Assembly (NCBI RefSeq): GCF_014486675.1
Contig: NZ_JACTAC010000001.1
Span: 62,001-126,000, forward strand
Direction: 5' to 3'
Length of the DNA stretch: 64,000 nucleotides
Source: Flavobacterium macrobrachii
Lineage (GTDB): Bacteria > Bacteroidota > Bacteroidia > Flavobacteriales > Flavobacteriaceae
Shown here: one piece after another, positions 13,441 to 64,000 of the stretch
Numbering within the stretch: position 1 is the stretch's first letter
Layout of the letters: each line of letters opens with the position of its first letter
Notes under the pieces: generated by a model
Database searches by the model: none
Seen by the model: only the letters and a program-made list of their open reading frames with translations
What the model was told of the DNA's origin: nothing
Made by a program: the position numbers and the translations under genes

Positions 13441-13571
13441 TTTTGCTTTCCGTTTTCCCGCTTTCCGTTTCAATCTTTTATAATTACTTCTGTAATTATA
13501 AAAGGATTTCCACTTCAATCGGGGCTAATTTTTTTCTATTCGTTTACTAGGAATCAAATGGTTTACAGCTT

Positions 13572-13632
13572 TAACCCTGATTGAAGCGAAAATTTCCCGA
13601 TTTTTTTTCGGGAATTGTAGCGAAAAGCAGGA
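13572..13632 (+). repeat. Dispersed intergenic repeat family 1, copy b
   Basis: AACCCTGATTGAAGCGAAAA ... TAGCGAAAAGCAGGAA, with a central TTTCCCGA/TCGGGAA hairpin. Same ends and orientation as the copy near 220. The rest of the 13441-13737 gap is AT-rich with no further gene seen. Confidence 0.65.
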
Positions 13633-13737
13633 ATTACAATTACTGAAACAAACTACCGATTCGTTCCTAATCAAATGTAAAGATAAAACAGTTTGGTTTA
13701 CTGTATATTTCCTTATTTTTACCAAAAATTTAAGTTT

Positions 13738-28122: not shown

Positions 28123-28166
28123 TTTTATTTTGGCGTTACCAGTTTGCTTCGTGCCTCGCAATGACT

Positions 28167-28233
28167 GGTCGGGCTATTCGCTGTATCTTTTGTTCCGTAA
28201 ACTCCACAAAAGGATGCCGCTTCTATCCCTAAC
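28167..28233 (-). repeat. Dispersed intergenic repeat family 1, copy c
   Basis: GGTCGGGCTATTCGCTGTATC ... ACAAAAGGATGCCGCTTC, the reverse orientation of copies a and b. The 210-nt gap 28123-28332 otherwise holds only AT-rich sequence. Confidence 0.65.
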
Positions 28234-28332
28234 GCAAATCCATGAACTGACAAATGTCATATAATAAAAAAATTATGTTTTAGACTTTTGTATGTATAAA
28301 CTTCTAAACACATAAACCCATAAACTTTTATA

Positions 28333-38857: not shown

Positions 38858-38972
38858 TTTTTATCGTATAAAAGTAAAGTGAAAAAATGTACAACGTTTT
38901 TGTTACGAAAACGTTTGCAAAGGTAATAAAACATATTTGAGTTTCACTTTAACAATTGTTATTTTTTGGAGC

Positions 38973-39042
38973 TTATTCCAGCTGTTCGCTATATCTTTTT
39001 CTTTAAAAAAAAAGAAAAAGGATGCCGCTTCCATCTGGGCTA
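38973..39042 (-). repeat. Dispersed intergenic repeat family 1, copy d
   Basis: TTATTCCAGCTGTTCGCTATATC, central TTTTTCTTTAAAAAAAAAGAAAAA hairpin, GGATGCCGCTTCCATCTGGGCTA. Same ends as copies c and e. The remainder of 38858-39057 is AT-rich with no gene seen. Confidence 0.65.
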
Positions 39043-39057
39043 GAACTTGGTGTTGAA

Positions 39058-48770: not shown

Positions 48771-49700
48771 ATGAAGATAGAACAACAAAAAGAAATCATA
48801 TCAGGATTTAAACATTTGGAGCTTTTAGCAAACCAAGTAGTTGAAGGATTTATTTCCGGAATGCACAAATCGCCATTTCACGGATTTTCAGCCGAATTTG
48901 CCGAACATAAAATCTATAATTCAGGCGAAAGCACAAAAAATATTGATTGGAAACTTTTTGCCAAAACCGACCGATTATATACTAAAAGGTATCAAGAAGA
49001 AACCAATCTTCGTTGTCATTTAATTATCGATAATTCGTCCTCGATGCATTATCCAAAGTTGAATTCTAACGATTTGTTTTTTCACAACAAAATAGGTTTT
49101 TCCGTCTTAGCATCGGCTGTTTTGATGAATTTGTTAAAGAAACAACGCGATGCCGTTGGACTAAGCGTCTATTCCGATAAATACGAATATTACGCACCCG
49201 AAAAAGGAAGTGATCGTCATCATAGAATGATTTTGAACACCTTGGAAAATTTGCTTGAAAATCCAAAAGAAGCAAAATCGACCGATACCATTACTTATCT
49301 GCATCAAATAGCTGAAAAAGTACATCGTCGCTCGATGATAATTCTCTTTACTGATATGTTTCAAAATACAGCCGATAAAGAAAAACTCTTCAATGCATTA
49401 CAACATTTAAAACACAACAAACATAAAGTAATAATCTTTCATGTTTATGATAAAAAAACCGAAATCAACTTCAATTTTGACAATGCGCCACGAAAATTTA
49501 TCGACCTAGAAACAGGAGAACAAATCAATATTTTTGCCGATAACATCAAAGAAGCCTACGAAGAACAAGTAAATTTATACTTCAAAGAAATTGCAATGAC
49601 CTGCGCTCAGAACAAAATTAAGTACGTTCCAGTAGCTGTTGAAGAAAATTTTGAAAAAATTTTAACGACATATTTAGCTGAAAAACAAATGTTTGGTTAG
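48771..49700 (+). CDS. DUF58 family protein (VWA-like)
   Basis: 309 residues. DUF58 core at about 45-130 (AEHKIYNSGESTKNIDWKLFAKTDRLYTKRYQEETN), with DNSSSM matching the metal-ion site DxSxS of VWA folds. DUF58 proteins usually act with MoxR ATPases and membrane VWA proteins (Bat operon) in envelope or metal-insertion processes. No MoxR gene is adjacent in this window. Cytoplasmic or membrane-peripheral. The last chromosomal gene before the tRNA-Asp/element junction. Confidence 0.85.
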   Translation: MKIEQQKEIISGFKHLELLANQVVEGFISGMHKSPFHGFSAEFAEHKIYNSGESTKNIDWKLFAKTDRLYTKRYQEETNLRCHLIIDNSSSMHYPKLNSNDLFFHNKIGFSVLASAVLMNLLKKQRDAVGLSVYSDKYEYYAPEKGSDRHHRMILNTLENLLENPKEAKSTDTITYLHQIAEKVHRRSMIILFTDMFQNTADKEKLFNALQHLKHNKHKVIIFHVYDKKTEINFNFDNAPRKFIDLETGEQINIFADNIKEAYEEQVNLYFKEIAMTCAQNKIKYVPVAVEENFEKILTTYLAEKQMFG

Positions 49701-49738: not shown

Positions 49739-49768
49739 TTGCAAAACTAAAAAAGCGTTGTATATTTG
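49739..49768 (+). promoter_or_regulatory. Promoter of tRNA-Asp
   Basis: TTG (49739-49741), 19-nt spacer, TATATTTG (49761-49768), a perfect match to the Bacteroidota consensus, 18 nt before the tRNA. Confidence 0.8.
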
Positions 49769-49786: not shown

Positions 49787-49860
49787 GGTTTGGTAGTTCA
49801 GTTGGTTAGAATACATGCCTGTCACGCATGGGGTCGCGGGTTCGAGTCCCGTCCAGACCG
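49787..49860 (+). tRNA. tRNA-Asp (GTC)
   Basis: 74 nt, cloverleaf folds: acceptor GGTTTGG/CCAGACC, D arm, anticodon stem CATGC/GCATG with loop CTGTCAC (anticodon GTC), T arm GCGGG-TTCGAGT-CCCGT, discriminator G. No CCA encoded. The 3' end from 49840 is duplicated at 62974-62997, marking the insertion of an element. The left copy is complete, so the gene stays functional. Confidence 0.97.
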
Positions 49861-49863
49861 CTA
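49840..49863 (+). repeat. attL core: 24-bp direct repeat in the 3' end of tRNA-Asp
   Basis: 24 identical bases with 62974-62997 (GTTCGAGTCCCG then TCCAGACCGCTA). Covers the T arm, acceptor strand and 3 nt past the tRNA, the usual crossover region of tyrosine integrases. Confidence 0.9.
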
Positions 49864-50014
49864 GAAATAGCGAATTTAGGAAAAGGTTTTCAGAGATGAA
49901 AACCTTTTTTGCCCTAAATCCTAAACGGTAGTTGTGTTGTTTACCCGAGTAAAATCGGGCGGTTTAGTAGTTAGACCAAATGAAAAGCTTTCCCTATTGG
50001 GATGGCTTTTTTGC
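49864..50014 (+). ncRNA. Structured tRNA-downstream region, left (element-derived) copy
   Basis: Four hairpins: AGGTTTTC/GAAAACCT (49884-49905) with outer pair TTTAGG/CCTAAA and a T-run; CCCGA/TCGGG (49944-49959); GGTTTA/TAGACC (49961-49977); and TCCC-TATT-GGGA within AAAGC/GGCTTTTTT (about 49984-50012). Linker TAGTTGTGTTGTTT (49929-49942) is identical to the right copy. The first and last are terminator-like. Whether the middle is a separate RNA is unknown. Bases 50015-50253 hold no gene; an AATATTTG near 50217 is a candidate -7 element for dndC. Confidence 0.5.
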
Positions 50015-50253
50015 TTTATAGAAATTTCTATTCGTTGATAAAGGCGAAATTCTTTTTACTTCTTTAGCTTTAATTTGCCCAATATCCATCCCCTAATCCG
50101 TTACCTCAAAACTATACATTTAATTAAGTTTTGTTTTGAACCTCAAAATTGAGTAAAAAAAACAAAGAAAATTAGTAAAAAAATCATAATATTGTAGGAT
50201 TTGAGCAACCCTAAATATTTGTGGTTGTAAATATATATCAGAGAGCAATTAAA

Positions 50254-51582
50254 ATGAATAAGTTTACTCAAAATATAGTTGATGAAATAATCGACCAGTA
50301 CATGTTTGCTGATGATACAAAACGCCCATGGATTATTGGTTTTAGCGGAGGGAAAGATTCAACAGTAATGCTTCAATTAGTTTGGGAAGCATTAACACAA
50401 ATAAAAGATTTTCATGGTGTTGTTGGAAGGGATATTTATGTAGTTTGTAATGATACTATGGTTGAAAATCCTGTGATAACCGAATATGTATATAGGGTTT
50501 TAGATAAAATTTCAGAAGCTGCTAGAGACCAAAATTTACCAATACAAGTTATAAAGACATTACCTAGATTAGAAGACTCTTTTTGGGTTAATTTAATAGG
50601 TAAGGGCTATCCTGCTCCAAATAATGCCTTTAGATGGTGTACTGAGAGATTAAAAATCAAACCAACTTCACGATTTATCCTTGAACAGTTAGACGAATTT
50701 GGAGAAGCCATAATACTAATTGGAACTCGTTCTAGCGAAAGTGCAAGTAGAGCTAAATCAATGAAAAAACATGCTATTAAAGGTAAGAGATTAACAAAAC
50801 ATCCTACCCAAGCAAATACTTATATGTATGCACCAATTAGACATTTAATGCTAGAGCAGGTTTGGTATATAATTAACACAATGCCCTCGCCTTGGGGTGC
50901 TAGTAATGAAGAATTATTTCAAATATATTCAGATGCAAGTGCAGATGATTATGAGTGTCCAACTGTTGTTACTGATAAAGAACACAAATCTTGCGGGCAA
51001 AGTAGATTCGGTTGTTGGGTTTGTACCGTAGTAAAACAAGATAAGTCAATGTCTGCCTTAATTGATAATGGATTGACTTGGCTAAAGCCGTTGCTAACTT
51101 TAAGAAATGAACTAGCAGAGGAGAGAAATATTATTGAAAACAGAATGCCACAAAGAAGAAATGGTACAGATGCCATTAATGGTATGGGACCATATTATCC
51201 TAAATATAGAGCATCAGTACTTGAAAGACTTCTGAAAACTCAAAGAGAAGTACAAAAAGAGAAACCTCATGTTGAATTAATTACCAATCAGGAGTTAATT
51301 GCTATTCAAACAATTTGGTATAGGGATTTTGTTTTCGGTCAGAAAGTTTCAGATATTTACAAGAACGCATATAAAACAGATTTGGATATGAATAACCAAA
51401 ATGAAAAAAGAGAAAAAGAGCTAGAATTACTTAAAAAAACATGTGAAAATAGTCCACAAGATTTTGAGTTAATACAAGAACTTTTAACTCTACAAAAAAA
51501 TAAGTCATTATTAAATAGAAAAAGAGGACTTAAAGACGATATTGAAACAAGAATTGAAGAATATCTAAAAAAAGAGCAATAG
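50254..51582 (+). CDS. dndC: DndC, phosphorothioation sulfurtransferase (PAPS-reductase-like)
   Basis: 442 residues from ATG 50254 (MNKFTQNIVDEI); a GTG 11 codons earlier is less likely. PP-loop SGGKDST (about 31-37) binds ATP to activate the DNA backbone phosphate. Cysteines at about 129 (RWCTERLKIKP), 235, 247, 254 and 257 (CGQSRFGCWVC) are the candidates for the 4Fe-4S cluster and sulfur carrier; the last three match the DndC cluster pattern. DndC inserts sulfur with DndA or IscS, DndD and DndE. No dndA in the element; a chromosomal cysteine desulfurase is presumed. The next gene is 2 nt away. Confidence 0.9.
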   Translation: MNKFTQNIVDEIIDQYMFADDTKRPWIIGFSGGKDSTVMLQLVWEALTQIKDFHGVVGRDIYVVCNDTMVENPVITEYVYRVLDKISEAARDQNLPIQVIKTLPRLEDSFWVNLIGKGYPAPNNAFRWCTERLKIKPTSRFILEQLDEFGEAIILIGTRSSESASRAKSMKKHAIKGKRLTKHPTQANTYMYAPIRHLMLEQVWYIINTMPSPWGASNEELFQIYSDASADDYECPTVVTDKEHKSCGQSRFGCWVCTVVKQDKSMSALIDNGLTWLKPLLTLRNELAEERNIIENRMPQRRNGTDAINGMGPYYPKYRASVLERLLKTQREVQKEKPHVELITNQELIAIQTIWYRDFVFGQKVSDIYKNAYKTDLDMNNQNEKREKELELLKKTCENSPQDFELIQELLTLQKNKSLLNRKRGLKDDIETRIEEYLKKEQ

Positions 51583-51584
51583 AT

Positions 51585-53702
51585 ATGTTCATTAAAGAAA
51601 TTGAGTTAAATAATTTCAGGATATATAAGGGAAGTAACAAAATAAATCTTCTGCCTGAAAAGGATAAAAACATTATTGTTGTTAGTGGTAAAAATGGATT
51701 TGGAAAGACAACTTTTCTAATGTCATTGGTTTGGTGTTTATACGGCAAACAAATGGAAAAAGTAGATGAGTTGTATCAGAAAGAAATTGCCGACAAAGGA
51801 GGTTATGGAAAATACATAGGTAATAGTTTAAATCGTCTTGCAAAAGTTGAAGGAGAAACGAAATTTTCTGTTTCTGTAACTTTTAGAGATGTTAAAATTC
51901 CTGAAATTACATGTAATGAAATAAAAATCACGAGAACTTATGACATTGTTACAAGTGCAAGTGATAAAGTCGAAGTCTTGATTGATGGTTTTCAGAATGA
52001 ATTGATTCAAGATTTAACAACTGATGGCAAACAAGACGGTGAAGAGATATTTATTAGGGACTTTATTTTACCAATAGAAATTGCAAAATTTTTCTTTTTT
52101 GATGCTGAAAAGATAGTTTCACTCGCTGAAATCAATTCTCCCGAGCAAAGAAGATTATTGAGTAAAGCTTACACGGAAGTTTTAGGTATCAAAAAGTATG
52201 AAGATTTAAAAGAGCAATTAGAAAATATTCAGGATGAATATAGAAAGAAGTTTGCTAAACCTCAAGAGAGAACAGAGTTCAATCAGATTATTGCTGACAT
52301 CGATAATCGACAAATAAATATTGATGAAGTTGAATTACAGATTCAACAACTTAATCAAGAAAAAATTGAAAAGCAAAGCAATTCAAATGAAATTCAAATG
52401 AAGCTAATTCAAGAGGGTAATATGATGACTCTTGAACAACTAAACGAGCTTAAAGAATTTGAAAATACGCTAAATGGAAAAATTGGAGATTTACAAAATG
52501 ATTTAAAAGAATTATTTGATTTAATACCATTTGGATTAGCAGGAGAAACACTTATGGATATATCTACTCAATTAGATGTTGAAAAAAGTTACAGAGAGAG
52601 TAAATATAAACAAGAAGATGTAGGAGATAAAACAAATAAAATTCTCAATGATATTGAAGCTCAAAAACGCAATTTTTCGGGTGTAATACCAACTGATATA
52701 AGAGATTTTTATGAAAACCAAATAAAATTTTTAGTAAAAAAATATTTTTATTCAGATTTACCTGAATTAGAAACAAACTTTAATGCTTTACATGATTTTT
52801 CTGATGTTGAAACTAATGAATTAAATTCATTAATCAATAACCTAAAACATACCTTTAAAGATGTATTTACAAAATTGAATGATGAATATACTCGTTCTAA
52901 AAGCGATTTAGATTCTATAAGAAGAAAAATTAGAGCAGCAGAAAAAGATGCTGAAGATGAATATATAGCAAATTTAAGGTCTGAAAAAGAAAGACTTGAT
53001 AAAAGAATTTTTTCTATTGACAAAGACATTTACGATTTAGGGGAAAGAATAGGAGGTTTTAAAAATGAAATTAAAACTTTGAAACAAAGACAAGAAGAGT
53101 TGAGAAAAAAGATTGATGATTCAAGAAGATACTCTGAAAAAGATAAAAAAACCCAAGAATTAATTTCTAAACTCAAAGAATTCATTAAAGAATTTAAAGT
53201 TACAACTAAAAAGAAGTTGGAAGAAAATATATTGAATGAATTAAATACATTAATGCACAAAAAAGGATTTATTAAAAATGTTGTTGTAGATATTAATCAA
53301 GCAGGAGATGATGTTGATATAAATTTATTTAATTCTAGGGGAGAAAAAATTGATAAAGGTTCTCTTTCAATGGGAGAAAGACAGATGTATGCTTCAGCTC
53401 TTTTAAAAGCTTTAGTTGATGAATCTGATATTGAATTCCCTGTATTTATAGATTCTCCAATGCAGAAATTTGATAAAGAACATGCTGAAAATGTAATCAA
53501 AGAGTTTTATCCAAATGTTTCCAAGCAAGTAGTTATTTTTCCACTTATTCATAAAGAATTGACAGAAAGTGAATTTGAATTATTAAAACCAAATATTAGT
53601 AAATCATATATTATACAAAATTTCAGTACAGACGCATCAAAATTTGTTGAGTCAACTCCTGAAAATTTAATTAAAACATACAACGATTTATATGCAAATT
53701 AA
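51585..53702 (+). CDS. dndD: DndD, SMC-like ATPase of the phosphorothioation complex
   Basis: 705 residues. N-terminal Walker A GKNGFGKTT (about 35-43), a long coiled coil (about 200-550) broken by a hinge region near 330-380, and the C-terminal ABC signature SMGERQ (about 594) with Walker B/D-loop FPVFIDSPM (about 619). It is the Rad50/SMC-type ATPase that supplies DNA nicking and energy to the Dnd complex. FFFDAEKI near residue 166 is typical of DndD. Overlaps the downstream dndE-HerA gene by 11 nt. Confidence 0.9.
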   Translation: MFIKEIELNNFRIYKGSNKINLLPEKDKNIIVVSGKNGFGKTTFLMSLVWCLYGKQMEKVDELYQKEIADKGGYGKYIGNSLNRLAKVEGETKFSVSVTFRDVKIPEITCNEIKITRTYDIVTSASDKVEVLIDGFQNELIQDLTTDGKQDGEEIFIRDFILPIEIAKFFFFDAEKIVSLAEINSPEQRRLLSKAYTEVLGIKKYEDLKEQLENIQDEYRKKFAKPQERTEFNQIIADIDNRQINIDEVELQIQQLNQEKIEKQSNSNEIQMKLIQEGNMMTLEQLNELKEFENTLNGKIGDLQNDLKELFDLIPFGLAGETLMDISTQLDVEKSYRESKYKQEDVGDKTNKILNDIEAQKRNFSGVIPTDIRDFYENQIKFLVKKYFYSDLPELETNFNALHDFSDVETNELNSLINNLKHTFKDVFTKLNDEYTRSKSDLDSIRRKIRAAEKDAEDEYIANLRSEKERLDKRIFSIDKDIYDLGERIGGFKNEIKTLKQRQEELRKKIDDSRRYSEKDKKTQELISKLKEFIKEFKVTTKKKLEENILNELNTLMHKKGFIKNVVVDINQAGDDVDINLFNSRGEKIDKGSLSMGERQMYASALLKALVDESDIEFPVFIDSPMQKFDKEHAENVIKEFYPNVSKQVVIFPLIHKELTESEFELLKPNISKSYIIQNFSTDASKFVESTPENLIKTYNDLYAN

Positions 53703-55269
53703 TATAAGGACATCAGAAGCTAATCAAGAGATAGTTAGAAAAATAACATCCAAATTACCAGTTGGCACTAAAGAAAATGTTATTGCTAGAATAGCTCTAG
53801 GATATTCTCTTCAAAATGGTAAAAGATTTACAGTATCAGAATTTAATATTTACGATTCAAAAGGTAAGGAATATAAAGATCACATATTGTTTGATGCAAA
53901 ATATAGAGATTTTTACATTGCTTTAATTTGTCAATACTATGGGATTTATAAAACGCATGAGAATATTCCAAAGTATATAAAGCTTCATATCGACCATGGA
54001 TTAGAGTTAATGGATACTTTATTTGAGAATAATAACAATTACACTTTTTTAGATTTTTTAATTGAACATTTAGACAAAGGTATTTCAATGTTAGATACCG
54101 TAAAAGTAAGTCTTGATGCAGTTAAAAATAACAATCAAGGAATTGAGAAGAGTTATTTTTCTGAACCAATTAAGATTCTCATTGGTAATAAACTTGAAAA
54201 TAAAAATGAAGAGATAGAATTAAATTTTAATAACACATCTCTTTACAACAACAATCATATAGCTGTTGCAGGTAGTTCAGGAACGGGTAAGACCCAATTT
54301 GCGCTACAATTATTAAAAGAAATTTCAGAAAAATCAAATCACCATGTAAACTTTATTTACCTAGATTTTAAAGGATTAAAAGATGATGATTTGATTGAAA
54401 TGCAACCATTTTTTGATAAGACAAAAGCTAAGTTCATTGACGCTCCAAAAACCGCATTTCCAGTAAATCCACTATCTTTTATTGACAGTATAAACGAGGT
54501 CAATAAGCAAATGGGAATAGATAAATTTGTTGATATTATTTGTAAATATTCAAATATTGGAATTAAACAAAGAGGAAAATTAAGAGAAGCAACATATGAA
54601 GCATTTTTAACGAAGAAGCCAGGTGAATATCCAAACTTTTCCGAAATTAATGAGCAGTTATTAGAATTAGTAGGAGATAAACGTGATACGTTGACTGAGA
54701 TTATTGATGAATTAAGTAGATACAACGTTTTTGAGGATAATAAGAAATTAGGTAATTTTTTAAATCAAAATATTTATTTATCATTATCAGGGGATTTATC
54801 TAATTCTGTAAGGTTCACTTCACTTTTTTTAATAATAAATTACATTTACAATGTATTTATGAACATGGAAAACACACCGAATGACAATGGGTATAGGTCT
54901 ATGAGATATGTTTTGTTGATTGATGAAGCTCATGTGATTTTCAAAGAAAAAAAGTATCAAGAAATTTTAGAAAAAATTTTAAGAGAGATTCGTTCAAAAG
55001 GTGTTTCAGTCGTGCTCTTGTCTCAAGGAATTGAGGAGTTTAATCAACCAACATTTGATTTTTCAAGCAATTGTGAAATCTCATTTTTATTAAATGTCAA
55101 AGATAAAAACAATGCAAAAGCTATAAATAAATTTTTAGGTTTTAGTGAAAAAGATGGAATTAAAGCATACAGAAGTTTAGAAAAGATACAAAAAGGTCAA
55201 TCAATTTCTAATATAAAAGAATTTCCTAAAGGAGAATTATTTGAAATAAAACAATTTTACAATAGTTAG
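53692..55269 (+). CDS. DndE domain fused to a HerA/FtsK-type ATPase
   Basis: 525 residues. N-terminal DndE-like domain (about 1-115): TKENVIARIALGYSL, DSKGKEYKDHILFDAKYRDFYIAL and IKLHIDHGLELM fit the phosphorothioation protein DndE, normally about 110-130 residues and free-standing. A linker (about 116-160) leads to an ATPase with Walker A GSSGTGKT (194-201), Walker B VLLIDEAH (407-414) and SQ (444-445), an arrangement of the HerA/FtsK translocases. Overlaps dndD by 11 nt. It may couple nick recognition to DNA movement, or replace the missing restriction module; both are inference. Confidence 0.85.
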   Translation: MQINIRTSEANQEIVRKITSKLPVGTKENVIARIALGYSLQNGKRFTVSEFNIYDSKGKEYKDHILFDAKYRDFYIALICQYYGIYKTHENIPKYIKLHIDHGLELMDTLFENNNNYTFLDFLIEHLDKGISMLDTVKVSLDAVKNNNQGIEKSYFSEPIKILIGNKLENKNEEIELNFNNTSLYNNNHIAVAGSSGTGKTQFALQLLKEISEKSNHHVNFIYLDFKGLKDDDLIEMQPFFDKTKAKFIDAPKTAFPVNPLSFIDSINEVNKQMGIDKFVDIICKYSNIGIKQRGKLREATYEAFLTKKPGEYPNFSEINEQLLELVGDKRDTLTEIIDELSRYNVFEDNKKLGNFLNQNIYLSLSGDLSNSVRFTSLFLIINYIYNVFMNMENTPNDNGYRSMRYVLLIDEAHVIFKEKKYQEILEKILREIRSKGVSVVLLSQGIEEFNQPTFDFSSNCEISFLLNVKDKNNAKAINKFLGFSEKDGIKAYRSLEKIQKGQSISNIKEFPKGELFEIKQFYNS

Positions 55270-55274
55270 TTAAC

Positions 55275-55775
55275 ATGGAGAATGCCAAAGTACCTCATTT
55301 TTTTAAAGAAATTAAAGAAAGAATGAAATTACAATTTTATCCTTTCAATGATTTATATTTAACTTATCTTGTTTTTTTTGTATTACTCATAGGCGGTATT
55401 GGAATTTGGGTTTCAATTTTTCAAGAGTTTAATAAAGATGTAGCAAATTATACAAATGTTGTTTTGAATATGGGTACTTATTATTTAGCATTAATAACAA
55501 CTTCATATATTGATATTACTACAAATGATAAAATTGTAAACAAGAAAAGTTTACAGGTATATTCTTTTATCTTTTTATTTATTGTAGCTTCAATTTTTGT
55601 CTCTTCATTTTTTCTAATAGATAAATATTCACTTTTATTATCATCAATAGGAATAATATTAGGATTATTTATTTGGCATCTTGCAAATTGTGAAAATGAA
55701 AAATTTAATGACGAAAGTTATAGTGCTAAAATTAGAGCTGGAGCAAAAAACACTCATGGTAAAGGCTGGAAATAA
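55275..55775 (+). CDS. Four-helix membrane protein of the Dnd operon, unknown family
   Basis: 166 residues. Four predicted membrane helices at about 26-46, 58-78, 95-115 and 117-137, with a Lys-rich cytoplasmic N-terminus (FKEIKERMKLQF) and a basic tail ending THGKGWK. Starts 5 nt after the dndE-HerA stop and overlaps the dndB start by 1 nt, so it is an integral part of the operon. No known Dnd component is a membrane protein of this kind. Options include an effector acting on the membrane, or an anchor for the HerA ATPase. No family recognised. Confidence 0.7.
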   Translation: MENAKVPHFFKEIKERMKLQFYPFNDLYLTYLVFFVLLIGGIGIWVSIFQEFNKDVANYTNVVLNMGTYYLALITTSYIDITTNDKIVNKKSLQVYSFIFLFIVASIFVSSFFLIDKYSLLLSSIGIILGLFIWHLANCENEKFNDESYSAKIRAGAKNTHGKGWK

Positions 55776-57115
55776 TGAATAATCTAATTAATAATAAAAT
55801 TATAGGTTTCCCAATTTTTCAAAATCAACAAGATTTTATTGTGGGAAAATTTAGCATATCTCAAATTTTCAAATTCACTAGATATACTTCACGAATTTTA
55901 AATTCTTTTGATGAGGAGGGAAAACCATTATATAATAATGAAATTCAGAGAGAGATTGAAAATCCAAGAGCAAATAAGATAGCTGATTTTTTAATTGAAG
56001 ACCCAGAAGCAACATTTCCAACAAATATAGTTTTGCACATTCCTAAAGAAGCAATCGAAGAGCAGAAAGAACATCAAAACTTTGTTGAAATTAAAATAAA
56101 GCAACAAGTTTTTGAAGAATTAAATAAAGCAAATGGGGATATTTACATTACAGTTATTGATGGACAACATAGGGTTAGAGGGATTGAGATTGCATTAAAA
56201 AGAATAAAAGATGAAATTAACAACTTAATTAGTGATATAAATAAATATCCCTCTAAAATCGATTTACAGGAGAAACTAGCATTTAAAAAGCAAAGATTAT
56301 CCGATTTAGAAAAAATAGAGTTAGTTGTTTCTTTTTTTATAGATAAAACAATTGAGTATCAAGCAATGATTTTTTCAACTATAAATAGAACTCAAAAAAG
56401 AGTTTCTCAAAGTTTGGTATATGATTTGTTCGGTTTAGATTTAGACGATACTCCCCAAAAAACAGCAATTCAAGCTATTATTGCTTTGAATGGTCATAAG
56501 ACCTCTCCATTTTACAATAGAATAAAATTTTATGGTGGGGATTATTCTAATGACTATAGTCCACCATTATCTCAAGCTACAATGGCAAAATCTATAGTAA
56601 ATTTAATTTCAGAAAATCTCAGAGAATCAGAAAGGGATAGAAACAGAAAAAGGAATGAACTAAAAACCAGAACTCCTGGGTCAAATAAATTCTTGCCATT
56701 TAGAAAATACTATGCTAATAATCAAGATGAGTATATTTCTGATATTATGTTTTATTATTTCAATTGTGTAAAGTCAACCTTTAAAAATGAGCAAGGAACT
56801 TCATATTGGGAATTTAGGGATTCAACTCTAAAACCAACAAATATTTTACAAACAACAGTTGGTTATGAGGCATTATTAAATATTTTAGTTGATATACTTG
56901 AAAAGGAAAAGTTAACAGAATTCAATGTAAATGTATTTACACCTTTCCTTGACAAATGTAAAAAAATAGATTTTGGAAACACTAACCTTTATACATTCAA
57001 TAATAGAGGGAAAAAGATATTATATTTAAGTATGAGTTTAGCTATTTGGGAAACAAATAAATTAGATTCTCAAGACAATAGATATAAAGAATTAATGGAG
57101 TTAATTAAAGTTTAA
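55775..57115 (+). CDS. dndB: DndB-like DGQHR-domain protein
   Basis: 446 residues. DGQHR motif VIDGQHRVRGIE (about 128-139), preceded by NPRANKIADFLIEDPEATFPTNIVL, typical of the DndB/DGQHR family, and followed by STINRTQKRVSQSLVYDLFGLD. DndB binds upstream of dnd genes and limits modification in canonical systems, where it is divergent from or ahead of dndC. Here it is the last gene of the operon, after the membrane protein (1-nt overlap ATAATGAAT). Its DNA-binding role is inferred by homology. A strong terminator follows. Confidence 0.85.
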   Translation: MNNLINNKIIGFPIFQNQQDFIVGKFSISQIFKFTRYTSRILNSFDEEGKPLYNNEIQREIENPRANKIADFLIEDPEATFPTNIVLHIPKEAIEEQKEHQNFVEIKIKQQVFEELNKANGDIYITVIDGQHRVRGIEIALKRIKDEINNLISDINKYPSKIDLQEKLAFKKQRLSDLEKIELVVSFFIDKTIEYQAMIFSTINRTQKRVSQSLVYDLFGLDLDDTPQKTAIQAIIALNGHKTSPFYNRIKFYGGDYSNDYSPPLSQATMAKSIVNLISENLRESERDRNRKRNELKTRTPGSNKFLPFRKYYANNQDEYISDIMFYYFNCVKSTFKNEQGTSYWEFRDSTLKPTNILQTTVGYEALLNILVDILEKEKLTEFNVNVFTPFLDKCKKIDFGNTNLYTFNNRGKKILYLSMSLAIWETNKLDSQDNRYKELMELIKV

Positions 57116-61413: not shown

Positions 61414-62592
61414 TTACAGTCTATTAAGGTTATTATTCTCGTTTTTTGGCTGAAAGTTTACAGTACCCATTATGTCTTTCATTTTATTTACATTAATTCC
61501 AGTATAAGCATAAGTTTGGCTCAATTTTTTATGTCCCATCATTTTAGAAATATAAAATACATTAACATTATTATTTAATAAGGTAGTCCCAAAAGTATGA
61601 CGTGCAACATGAAAATGAAGTGTCTTTTTTAATTCAGCTATCTCTCCAATTTTCTTTAAGTATCTATTTACTGTTTGGTTTTCTATTCGTGGAAAAATAT
61701 TTTCATTCTCTTTCCTTTTAGACCAATATTTACAGATAATTTTTTTGGCTTCTAAATTCACAGGTACTTTTAAATCAACTCCAGTTTTAACTTGTTTTAG
61801 TGTAATTACTCCATTTTTGTAATTTTCCTTTTTTAAAGCTACCACATCACTATAACGCATTCCAGTATAACAACTGAATAGAAACATACATCGGGTTAGT
61901 TCTAAATGCTTTTTTGTAGATAAATCACAAATCTCAATTTGGTTTATTTCAGCAGGAGTTAAATATACCTCTCTAGCATTTGGACTTACATTTTTTAAAC
62001 CTTTCCAAGATTCGTTTTTTAAAACACCTAGCTTTACAGCTTCTTTTAACACAGTTTTTAAAAATTTAATCATGTTGTATCTACCGCTTTTAGTTTCTAC
62101 AAGATAATTATCAAACTCAACCATAAAAGAATAATCAATTTCTGAAACCATTAAGTTCGGTTTAAAGTCGTCTATTTTTTTTCCAAGTGTAGTGTAATGG
62201 ATTTGAGTACTTTCTCTTATAGTTTGGAAATGGCGTTTACAAAAAGATTCATAAAATGTAGAAAACAAAATTTCATTATCGGTTTCAGTTTTTCCATTCC
62301 AAAAGTTTGAAATGTCAGTTTTAGATAATGGTCTGCCAATACTTTTAGATTCTCTGATAAAGTCTTCCAGATTTTGTTTTTTCTTTTTAATTACAGCATT
62401 TAGATTTCCAAAGCCTTTTCCGATACCTTGTTCTTTATCTTTATCCCAATACTTCTCTTCAATAAATTCAGATGTAGAAAATTTTTGAGTTACATTGTTG
62501 TATTGTAGTACAACGTAGATTGGACAAGTTCCATTTTTTCTAATTTTGTCCGTTCTTAAAACGGCTCTTACTGTGTAATAATTAATTGTCAT
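61414..62592 (-). CDS. int: Tyrosine site-specific integrase
   Basis: 392 residues. Arm-binding domain with RTDKIRKNGTCPIYVVLQYN (about 10-30), core-binding SAM-like domain (about 100-190), and the catalytic domain with Arg in SCYTGMRYSDV (about 245), Lys in the beta-hairpin KQVKTG, HxxR as FHVARHTFG (about 331-340), second His/Trp position GHKKL, and nucleophile Tyr in YAYTGI (about 367). It recombines the element with the tRNA-Asp 3' end. Located about 380 bp from attR. Cotranscribed with the paralogue B gene. Confidence 0.92.
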   Translation of the reverse strand: MTINYYTVRAVLRTDKIRKNGTCPIYVVLQYNNVTQKFSTSEFIEEKYWDKDKEQGIGKGFGNLNAVIKKKKQNLEDFIRESKSIGRPLSKTDISNFWNGKTETDNEILFSTFYESFCKRHFQTIRESTQIHYTTLGKKIDDFKPNLMVSEIDYSFMVEFDNYLVETKSGRYNMIKFLKTVLKEAVKLGVLKNESWKGLKNVSPNAREVYLTPAEINQIEICDLSTKKHLELTRCMFLFSCYTGMRYSDVVALKKENYKNGVITLKQVKTGVDLKVPVNLEAKKIICKYWSKRKENENIFPRIENQTVNRYLKKIGEIAELKKTLHFHVARHTFGTTLLNNNVNVFYISKMMGHKKLSQTYAYTGINVNKMKDIMGTVNFQPKNENNNLNRL

Positions 62593-62871: not shown

Positions 62872-62879
62872 TATATTTG
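62872..62879 (+). promoter_or_regulatory. -7 promoter element (TATATTTG) facing attR
   Basis: Identical to the -7 of the tRNA-Asp promoter, including GATATATTTGCA versus GTATATTTGCA. No TTG at the right distance for a -33. It would transcribe across attR into the terminator hairpin. Otherwise 62593-62973 is AT-rich with no gene. Confidence 0.4.
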
Positions 62880-62973: not shown

Positions 62974-62997
62974 GTTCGAGTCCCGTCCAGACCGCTA
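62974..62997 (+). repeat. attR core: 24-bp direct repeat (tRNA-Asp 3' fragment)
   Basis: Copy of 49840-49863. The sequence just before it (ATATATGGTCGA) is not tRNA, so only the 3' end is duplicated. Confidence 0.9.
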
Positions 62998-63153
62998 AAA
63001 TTGGGAAAAAGGTTTTCGGAAACGAAAACCTTTTTTGCCCAAAAAAGCATTTAAGATTAGTTGTGTTGTTTCGATACGAATTTGTAACTCGTATCACGGT
63101 TTAGTAGTTAGACCAATGAAAAGCTTTCCACTTTTTGTGGATGGCTTTTTTGT
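62998..63153 (+). ncRNA. Structured tRNA-downstream region, right (chromosomal) copy
   Basis: Hairpins in the same order as 49864-50014 but with different bases: GGTTTTCG-GAAA-CGAAAACC (63011-63030) with outer TTGGG/CCCAA; GATACGA/TCGTATC (63073-63095); GGTTTA/TAGACC (63098-63114), identical; and TCCAC-TTTTT-GTGGA within AAAGC/GGCTTTTTT (to 63153). Linker TAGTTGTGTTGTTT (63058-63071) identical. Bases 63154-63288 are low-complexity with a phrase (ATCCGTGGCAAAAAAAT) resembling one near 25195. Confidence 0.5.
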
Positions 63154-63288
63154 TTTTTACGAAAGTTCTAAAAGTGAAAGCCACAAGAATAAATCCATGA
63201 AATCTATATAATCCGTGGCAAAAAAATAATCGTTACAACTGTTTTTTTAACTGTCAATAAATCTTCTCAAAAAATCTTTAGCAAAAAG

Positions 63289-63777
63289 CTAAACAAAATT
63301 CTTCAATGCGATATAGATATAAAGAATAAGAAATGAAAAGCAGACTACAAACTTTATAAAAGTAGAAACCAAAAACCCAATAAACGAACCCAAAGCAGCT
63401 TTCAGCGCGCCATTCGTATCTTTAGAATTATAAAGCATTTCTCCAACAAACGCACCAACAAAAGGTCCAACAACAAAACCTATAGGCGGAAAAAACAACC
63501 CAACAAGTAAACCAATATTCGTTCCCCAAACACCATATTTTGTCCCGCCAAACTTTTTCGTTCCTTTTGCTGGAATAATATAATCAGCAATCGTTATAAA
63601 AATTGTAATCAAAAAAGTAATGCCCAAAACCCAATAATTTGCCTCAACCGTTTTGGTGAAATATAGGCATACAAATCCAAACCAACTCAAAGTTGGACCA
63701 GGTAAAACAGGCAAAAAACTACCAATTAACCCCAAAATCATCAGAATTAGCCCAACAATTAAAAGTAAAGTATCCAT
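63289..63777 (-). CDS. DUF456 family membrane protein
   Basis: 162 residues, about five hydrophobic helices. LPVLPGPTLSWFGFVCL, KKFGGTKYGVWGTNIGLLVGLFFPPIGFVVGPFVGAFVGEML and the GALKAALGSFIGFLVST block match DUF456, a Gly-rich membrane family of unknown function. First chromosomal gene right of the element. Divergent from the following partial gene (61-nt spacer). Confidence 0.85.
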   Translation of the reverse strand: MDTLLLIVGLILMILGLIGSFLPVLPGPTLSWFGFVCLYFTKTVEANYWVLGITFLITIFITIADYIIPAKGTKKFGGTKYGVWGTNIGLLVGLFFPPIGFVVGPFVGAFVGEMLYNSKDTNGALKAALGSFIGFLVSTFIKFVVCFSFLILYIYIALKNFV

Positions 63778-63838
63778 AGAAATTAAATTTTATTACATTT
63801 GGGAAATTAAAAACCCGATTTCTTTCCGGTACTAAAAT

Positions 63839-64000
63839 ATGAGAAAATTTATAGTATTCCTTTTTTTGTCCAATCTCTTTTTCACTTCTTGTCAATTATT
63901 TGACAAAAAAGTGCCTAATGAAAAAGAATTATTGGATAAGCAACTAAAAGAAATCAATTGGAAAGAGGTTGACGAACTACCATCAGTATCAGATTGCGAA
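63839..64000 (+). CDS. Lipoprotein of unknown function, N-terminal fragment
   Basis: 54 residues visible from ATG 63839, running off the window. MRKFIVFLFLSNLFFTSCQLFDKK is a lipoprotein signal (Cys about 18), followed by charged sequence (NEKELLDKQLKEINWKEVDELPSVSDCE). No domain can be named from this part. Confidence 0.75.
   Translation, partial: MRKFIVFLFLSNLFFTSCQLFDKKVPNEKELLDKQLKEINWKEVDELPSVSDCE

Follow-up and report, generated by a model that had tools for sequence, protein, structure and literature searches.

Organization of the locus

The 64,000-nucleotide stretch of the Flavobacterium macrobrachii genome analyzed here (hereafter, the window) contains an integrative element of about 13 kb that carries dnd genes, and at each of its ends a segment of about 150 bp follows the 3' end of tRNA-Asp; these two segments (49864-50014, left, and 62998-63153, right) are related to each other. 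The element has the layout of mobile DNA that restores the tRNA gene it enters: a complete tRNA and a displaced 3' fragment flank it in the same orientation, a tyrosine integrase is encoded within it and the empty site is present in a close relative, F. solisilvae. The 20-base 3' end of tRNA-Asp occurs twice in the window's genome (up to two mismatches), namely in the tRNA and in the displaced fragment. The features of the locus are collected in Table 1. Elsewhere in the window, five matches to the Flavo-1 RNA motif were detected (216-310, 13450-13530, 13569-13638, 28163-28240, and 38971-39045), two of them 38 bases apart on opposite strands.

Table 1. Features of the tRNA-Asp locus and of the element inserted in it (window coordinates).
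Feature	Position	Strand	Remarks
Upstream chromosomal gene (DUF58)	48771..49700	+	93.0% identity over 748 bp with F. solisilvae
Promoter-like TTG-N19-TATATTTG	49739..49768	+	ahead of tRNA-Asp; sole such site upstream of the left RNA copy; from sequence
tRNA-Asp (GTC)	49787..49861	+	5' portion from the chromosome, 3' end contributed by the element
Left attachment core GTTCGAGTCCCGTCCAGACCGCTA (tRNA 3' end)	49840..49863	+	identical to 62974-62997
Hairpin T1 with U-run, element copy	49875..49918	+	
Element-borne RNA copy	49919..50012	+	covariance-model match 71.9 bits, E 3.5e-12; absent from the model-building set
Conserved linker GTTGTGTTGTTT, left copy	49931..49942	+	
Variable stem 1 (CCCGA/TCGGG), left copy	49944..49959	+	
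Conserved hairpin GGTTTAGTAGTTAGACC, left copy	49961..49977	+	
Terminator T2, left copy	49982..50012	+	T2 and following sequence common to the sister element of F. fragile
DNA phosphorothioation (Dnd/Pbe) cargo, whole block	50221..57115	+	
DndC	50221-51582	+	
DndD/PbeC	51585-53702	+	
DndE plus HerA/DndH-like ATPase	53692-55269	+	
DndB-like	55775-57115	+	
Tyrosine integrase (Arm-DNA-bind_5, SAM_5, Phage_integrase)	61414..62592	-	G261 protein 99% identical
Right attachment core (displaced tRNA-Asp 3' fragment)	62974..62997	+	
Hairpin T1, chromosomal copy	63001..63042	+	
Chromosomal (host) RNA copy, severed from the tRNA-Asp promoter	63048..63151	+	covariance-model match 117.7 bits, E 2.7e-22; itself one of the 38 model sequences
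Conserved hairpin GGTTTAGTAGTTAGACC, right copy	63098..63114	+	
Downstream chromosomal gene (DUF456)	63289..63777	-	flank 63161-64000, 94.1% identity over 712 bp with F. solisilvae

Structure and conservation of the RNA

The predicted fold of each segment runs from T1, a hairpin carrying a U-run, through the unpaired linker GTTGTGTTGTTT, a stem of variable sequence and the hairpin GGTTTAGTAGTTAGACC to the terminator T2. The putative RNA spans ~95-105 nt, in which the linker GUUGUGUUGUUU is followed by the sequence-variable stem, the hairpin GGUUUAGUAGUUAGACC and the terminator. Over the first 130 bases after the tRNA end the left and right segments are identical at 101 of the 143 columns of their alignment (70.6%), and the pieces of 137 and 146 nt that cover the two copies fold more stably than dinucleotide shuffles (z -4.8 and -4.3, respectively), none of the 200 shuffles made for each copy folding as well as the real piece. 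A small ORF in T2 (ATGAAAAGC...) was considered and rejected because the loop varies by single bases between species, which breaks the frame.

The original prediction, made from the letters of the window, held that the ~150-bp segments align with identical linkers and that their stems differ by paired changes. Both segments were located and the alignment agrees; the paired stems are CCCGA/TCGGG (49944-49948/49955-49959) vs GATACGA/TCGTATC (63073-63079/63089-63095), and the further pairs TTTAGG/CCTAAA vs TTGGG/CCCAA and TCCC/GGGA vs TCCAC/GTGGA are also present. The stretch CGGTTTAGTAGTTAGACCAA, described there as a linker, is identical in the two copies but is not purely a linker, as it contains the best-conserved hairpin of the RNA, and what had been taken for a conserved middle hairpin is in fact the sequence-variable one.

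Conservation was assessed with pattern searches and with a covariance model. A two-part pattern of linker plus hairpin matched 119 of 150 genomes of the genus, and its reversed control matched none. The 155 distinct copies collected in this way were picked by the linker and the hairpin, whose conservation is therefore partly built in; the stem and T2 lay outside the selection. All 83 distinct stem inserts among these copies form at least five base pairs, with a mean folding energy of -9.1 kcal/mol vs -2.0 for shuffled letters. In an alignment of 38 copies with similar stem length, chosen out of 82 representatives, pairing is kept in 99.3% of the cells, stem 1 changes on both sides in six of its seven pairs and the covariation score reaches 0.261, shuffles giving 0.098; less striking is the count of pair types, one of five measures, whose value is reached by 42 of 500 shuffles. 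The RNAalifold consensus of another alignment (34 copies of mixed stem lengths) lacked stem 1 because MAFFT cannot align stems of unequal length, and the pair counts therefore rest on the 38-copy alignment. That the stem differences compensate each other, as originally claimed, is thus borne out by the stem inserts and by the covariation score.

The covariance model was built from the same 38 copies, which include the right copy of the window and exclude the left one. It detected the RNA in 294 of 299 genomes of the genus with a completeness of 95% or more (E up to 1e-5), most of them with one match, and in 163 of 299 genomes of the family, representing 137 of 236 genera (E up to 0.001), many of these matches being near the limit. 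In a sample of the order (196 genomes) 26 matched, 24 of them of the same family and two from other families with E values of 4.7e-4 and 7.2e-4. Conservation of the linker and hairpin, which is partly built into the pattern searches, is not built into this search of other genomes.

No Rfam 15 family reached its gathering score on either segment (best scores of 19.8-23.6 bits vs cut-offs of 54-100) and relaxed thresholds gave no significant match on the RNA segments. Full-length matches below significance covered 49858-50012 and 62994-63155, with BTnc231, a Bacteroides sRNA (E 0.063), and with the aspC motif (E 0.15). An RNA that occurs family-wide and is missed by the models of Rfam 15 represents an addition to the known repertoire. 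Comparison of two copies of the RNA with 50,697 phage records by blastn returned only short chance matches. A simple seed model was also rejected, as the complement of the linker is unenriched in the window's genome (18 sites, two of which are the RNA copies themselves, vs 17 for the reversed control).

Linkage of the RNA to tRNA-Asp

tRNA-Asp lies within 250 bp upstream in 146 of 159 RNA copies, most commonly at 61-66 bases; these copies were listed from the first 157 loci, retrieved by means of either the tRNA end or the linker pattern, with some loci present more than once. In the other 13 rows the RNA follows a displaced tRNA fragment (8), lies at the edge of the fetched stretch (4) or follows neither (1). 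The original prediction depended on a similar structure being present at tRNA-Asp in relatives, and these counts, together with the 294 RNA-bearing genomes of the genus, agree with it. Likewise, a genome that is a candidate for F. johnsoniae UW101 (G136) has the RNA with tRNA-Asp 64 bases upstream. The flavobacterial tRNA-Asp-RNA locus also appeared in three metagenome bins labeled Candidatus Nitrotoga, Rhizobium, and Bifidobacterium (L041, L092, and L148), probably on misbinned contigs.

The motif TTG-N19-TAnnTTTG, which we take to be the promoter consensus at the sites upstream of tRNA-Asp, is found there in 127 of 134 distinct regions and in none of the 134 after shuffling; it is absent from the spacer between tRNA-Asp and the RNA in all 134 distinct loci. 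In two genomes, both without T1, the linker starts only 10 bases (G584) or 21 bases (G422) past the tRNA end, a spacing that leaves no room for a promoter between tRNA and RNA. Taken together, the pattern counts and these spacings leave the tRNA-Asp promoter as the only one in sight. Counting against co-transcription, T1 resembles a terminator placed between the tRNA and the RNA.

Outside the genus the coupling is looser. Among 28 loci of the family, 17 have tRNA-Asp upstream, two have a displaced fragment, eight have neither and one is cut by a contig end, indicating that the linkage to the tRNA is not universal and that the RNA can have an independent existence; the loci without tRNA-Asp belong to several genera. 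At these eight loci (L256, L264, L265, L267, L268, L272, L275, and L278) the RNA comes after a TAnnTTTG box, spotted by eye somewhere upstream, and adjoins neither tRNA-Asp nor a displaced fragment.

Displaced cores differ from intact loci in their upstream promoter sites. The strict promoter is found within 400 bp upstream of only one of 21 displaced cores, several of which are related to each other, vs 127 of 134 intact tRNA-Asp loci; a TAnnTTTG box occurs at eight of the 21, and the TTG at the right distance is missing in all but one. Hence, insertion seems to silence the host RNA. An outward promoter of the element that would feed the displaced copy was considered for the window and discarded, since the TATATTTG box at 62872-62879 has no TTG at the required spacing. 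This box, which points outward to the right core, recurs in the relatives of this element in G261 and G280, likewise with no TTG at the usual spacing, and in an excised circle it would be directed into the element's RNA copy.

Origin and probable exchange of the two copies

In F. solisilvae SE-s27, whose flanks are 93.0% (748 bp) and 94.1% (712 bp) identical to those of the window, the RNA at the empty site matches the right copy in 151 of 167 columns and has the same stem, vs 124 of 174 columns for the left copy. The left copy thus came with the element, as originally proposed. In agreement with this, a sister element in F. fragile (G261), with a 99% identical integrase, shares the left-copy sequence: over the 130 bases after the left-copy hairpin 128 of 129 columns are identical, vs 83.2% identity in G280 and 56-65% at four element-free loci. 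Since the two copies of the window are homologous alleles of different origin, their paired changes represent divergence between species and not changes within one genome. The resemblance that had been interpreted as a structural mimic is real, and the left segment is better described as a homologous RNA gene.

The left-end copies of this element family (the window, G261, and G280) have three different stem alleles, all of which pair, and the left copy of G261 is a mosaic, 95.4% and 96.9% identical to the other two copies of its array. The shared sequence after the hairpin, together with the differing stem alleles, indicates that the left copy is part of the element and that its body has been replaced; recombination of the two flanking copies is probably the simplest route, as judged from these alignments. 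The G261 array (contig C1, 62646-105565) is a tandem pair of elements at one tRNA-Asp with three RNA copies. The G261 element that is sister to that of the window (L172) has Lamassu-like (LmuA, LmuB) and type II restriction-modification genes in place of the Dnd genes of the window, the two elements presenting one backbone with exchangeable defence cargo.

Carriage of the RNA by other elements at tRNA-Asp

The generality of this arrangement was examined by a search blind to the RNA, in which tRNA-Asp ends with a broken T-stem were sought in 398 genomes of the genus with a strict pattern that missed the displaced end of G280. Eight displaced cores were found in seven genomes and the RNA comes after all eight. 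For six elements (G000, two in G261, G146, G211, and G205) the tRNA side could be resolved, and in 6/6 it has the RNA; each of the six elements has an integrase. Of the other two, the G370 contig ends after T1 on the tRNA side; in G254 a tRNA-Asp end occurs on just one other contig, which lacks the RNA and has a different upstream gene; by eye this gene reads like a LuxR-type response regulator, and it replaces DUF58. This contig, from an 88%-complete genome, may be misbinned or may be a counter-example, and apart from it no resolved element without the RNA was seen. At both ends the RNA is likewise present in four further integrase-bearing elements (an IMG/VR contig, G637, G662, and G596), which were excluded from the count because they had been found through the RNA. 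The integrases fall into two lineages with 24-28% identity between them.

Additional RNA copies occur in arrays in G422, G431, G584, G479, and the distal part of G596, where no integrase was found among the one to three ORFs tested per array, suggesting that these arrays may be remnants. The most distal copy of G431 is decayed (30.0 bits vs 53.8 for the copy linked to the tRNA), and the displaced copies of G422, G596, G584, and G637 score about as high as the linked one; displaced copies are thus not consistently lower-scoring in the arrays compared.

The strongest alternative is that the RNA copy is a functionless passenger: an imprecise excision that formed attP would have taken along ~150-180 bp of chromosome, and recombination with the host would renew the copy. 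This would equally account for the four elements whose left copy agrees with the right one at every position over 130 bp (G146, G211, G205, and G637), and for the mosaic left copy of G261. Truncation or decay would, however, be expected in some elements if the passenger were neutral, and the RNA is complete through T2 in all six resolved elements of the RNA-blind search, a small number that nonetheless covers two integrase lineages, while the foreign allele of the window retains all its stems and linkers. This explanation is considered unlikely; its weight comes chiefly from the four elements with identical copies and from the small size of the unbiased sample, six.

It is still less probable that the segment is a mere double terminator of tRNA-Asp, restored as islands elsewhere restore terminators. 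T1 and T2 do resemble intrinsic terminators, and among viral contigs at large, irrespective of host, the RNA is present in only 3 of 44 stretches with a tRNA core and several displaced cores are followed by a terminator-like hairpin. Yet the best-conserved parts of the segment are the unpaired linker and the hairpin that follows stem 1, neither of which is needed for termination, and the RNA is kept without tRNA-Asp in several genera. The claim that the element restores the terminator region and one hairpin holds for the existence of a restored unit and falls short in its extent, which is the whole RNA. Finally, a role of the segment as a DNA target of the integrase (attB/attP would extend over it and include arm sites, and its inverted repeats would act as DNA) would fit its presence with different integrases and the fact that the stems are also inverted repeats in DNA, but is highly improbable given that the segment is found in nearly all genomes of the genus, mostly as a single match, that the right-end junction lies at the tRNA core and is preceded by unrelated element DNA, and that the stem sequence varies freely with pairing kept, whereas protein sites conserve sequence.

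Discussion

Based on its position, structure and conservation, the gene for the ~100-nt RNA is probably an ancient chromosomal sRNA gene of the flavobacterial family. In the reading preferred here, to which a probability of roughly 70% is assigned, this RNA is a product of the tRNA-Asp transcript; integration uncouples the host copy from it, and tRNA and RNA alike are restored by the element. In Flavobacterium, the RNA would be co-transcribed with tRNA-Asp and cut from the transcript by processing. Crossover in the 3' end of tRNA-Asp, catalyzed by a tyrosine integrase, would put the element between the tRNA gene and the host RNA. The host RNA would lose its promoter and fall silent, and the tRNA 3' end and complete RNA with terminator brought by the element would rebuild the unit "promoter - tRNA-Asp - RNA - terminator." Thus, elements apparently bring their own copy of the RNA because insertion severs the host copy from its promoter.

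The element of the window lies between tRNA-Asp and the host RNA, with its own RNA copy next to the tRNA; selection for replacement may be the reason why this copy is kept. Mosaics and left/right identity suggest that homologous recombination of the two flanking copies may exchange the element-borne copy for host alleles, and the RNA itself probably has a trans-acting regulatory role. A more far-reaching version, namely that a regulatory RNA present almost throughout Flavobacterium and in many members of its family is made only as the trailer of tRNA-Asp and has thereby forced elements at this tRNA to carry a replacement, so that they swap its alleles between species and decide which allele is expressed, is put forward tentatively, with odds a little short of even.

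Regulatory RNAs cut from tRNA transcripts exist, as exemplified by the 3' external transcribed spacer of tRNA-Leu in Escherichia coli. As in that case, the flavobacterial RNA comes directly after the tRNA and probably belongs to the same transcript; unlike the spacer, it has its own conserved fold and terminator and in some genera it occurs without the tRNA.

Genomic islands that restore the tRNA gene they split are well known, and the element of the window resembles those covered in the relevant sections of the Islander report (PMC4383910) in its tyrosine integrase, the complete tRNA at one end and the displaced 3' fragment at the other, their common orientation and the occurrence of tandem arrays. 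Those sections deal with restoration of the tDNA only, whereas here a whole downstream RNA gene is carried and rebuilt. Rebuilding of a host small RNA upon insertion of mobile DNA has a parallel in the pneumococcal phage OXC141, where the prophage rebuilds the sRNA csRNA3L at attL from the native promoter and a part supplied by the phage; attB lies within the sRNA gene and the modified RNA has stronger activity (PMC9764711). In the element of the window, by contrast, the crossover falls outside the sRNA gene: the junction sits at the tRNA, and the element supplies a second RNA that is complete.

Within the genus, the F. psychrophilum sRNA Rfp18 is summarized as a structured, genus-conserved RNA with several stem-loops (PMC9723704), a likeness that is weak, as the trait is common to other RNAs. 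Going by that summary, in which neither tRNA-Asp nor mobile elements appear, Rfp18 could be the tRNA-Asp-linked RNA, the comparison being one of descriptions. A report on an integrative and conjugative element of Chryseobacterium mentions tRNA-Asp (PMC8694125). A search of the open-licence literature found no account of a small RNA after tRNA-Asp in flavobacteria or of its carriage by elements.

Altogether, these observations extend the textbook rule that islands restore the tRNA they split to an RNA gene located downstream of the tRNA. They also imply that one allele of a host RNA can be traded for another through insertion, and the elements found at tRNA-Asp provide a natural test of the importance of this RNA.
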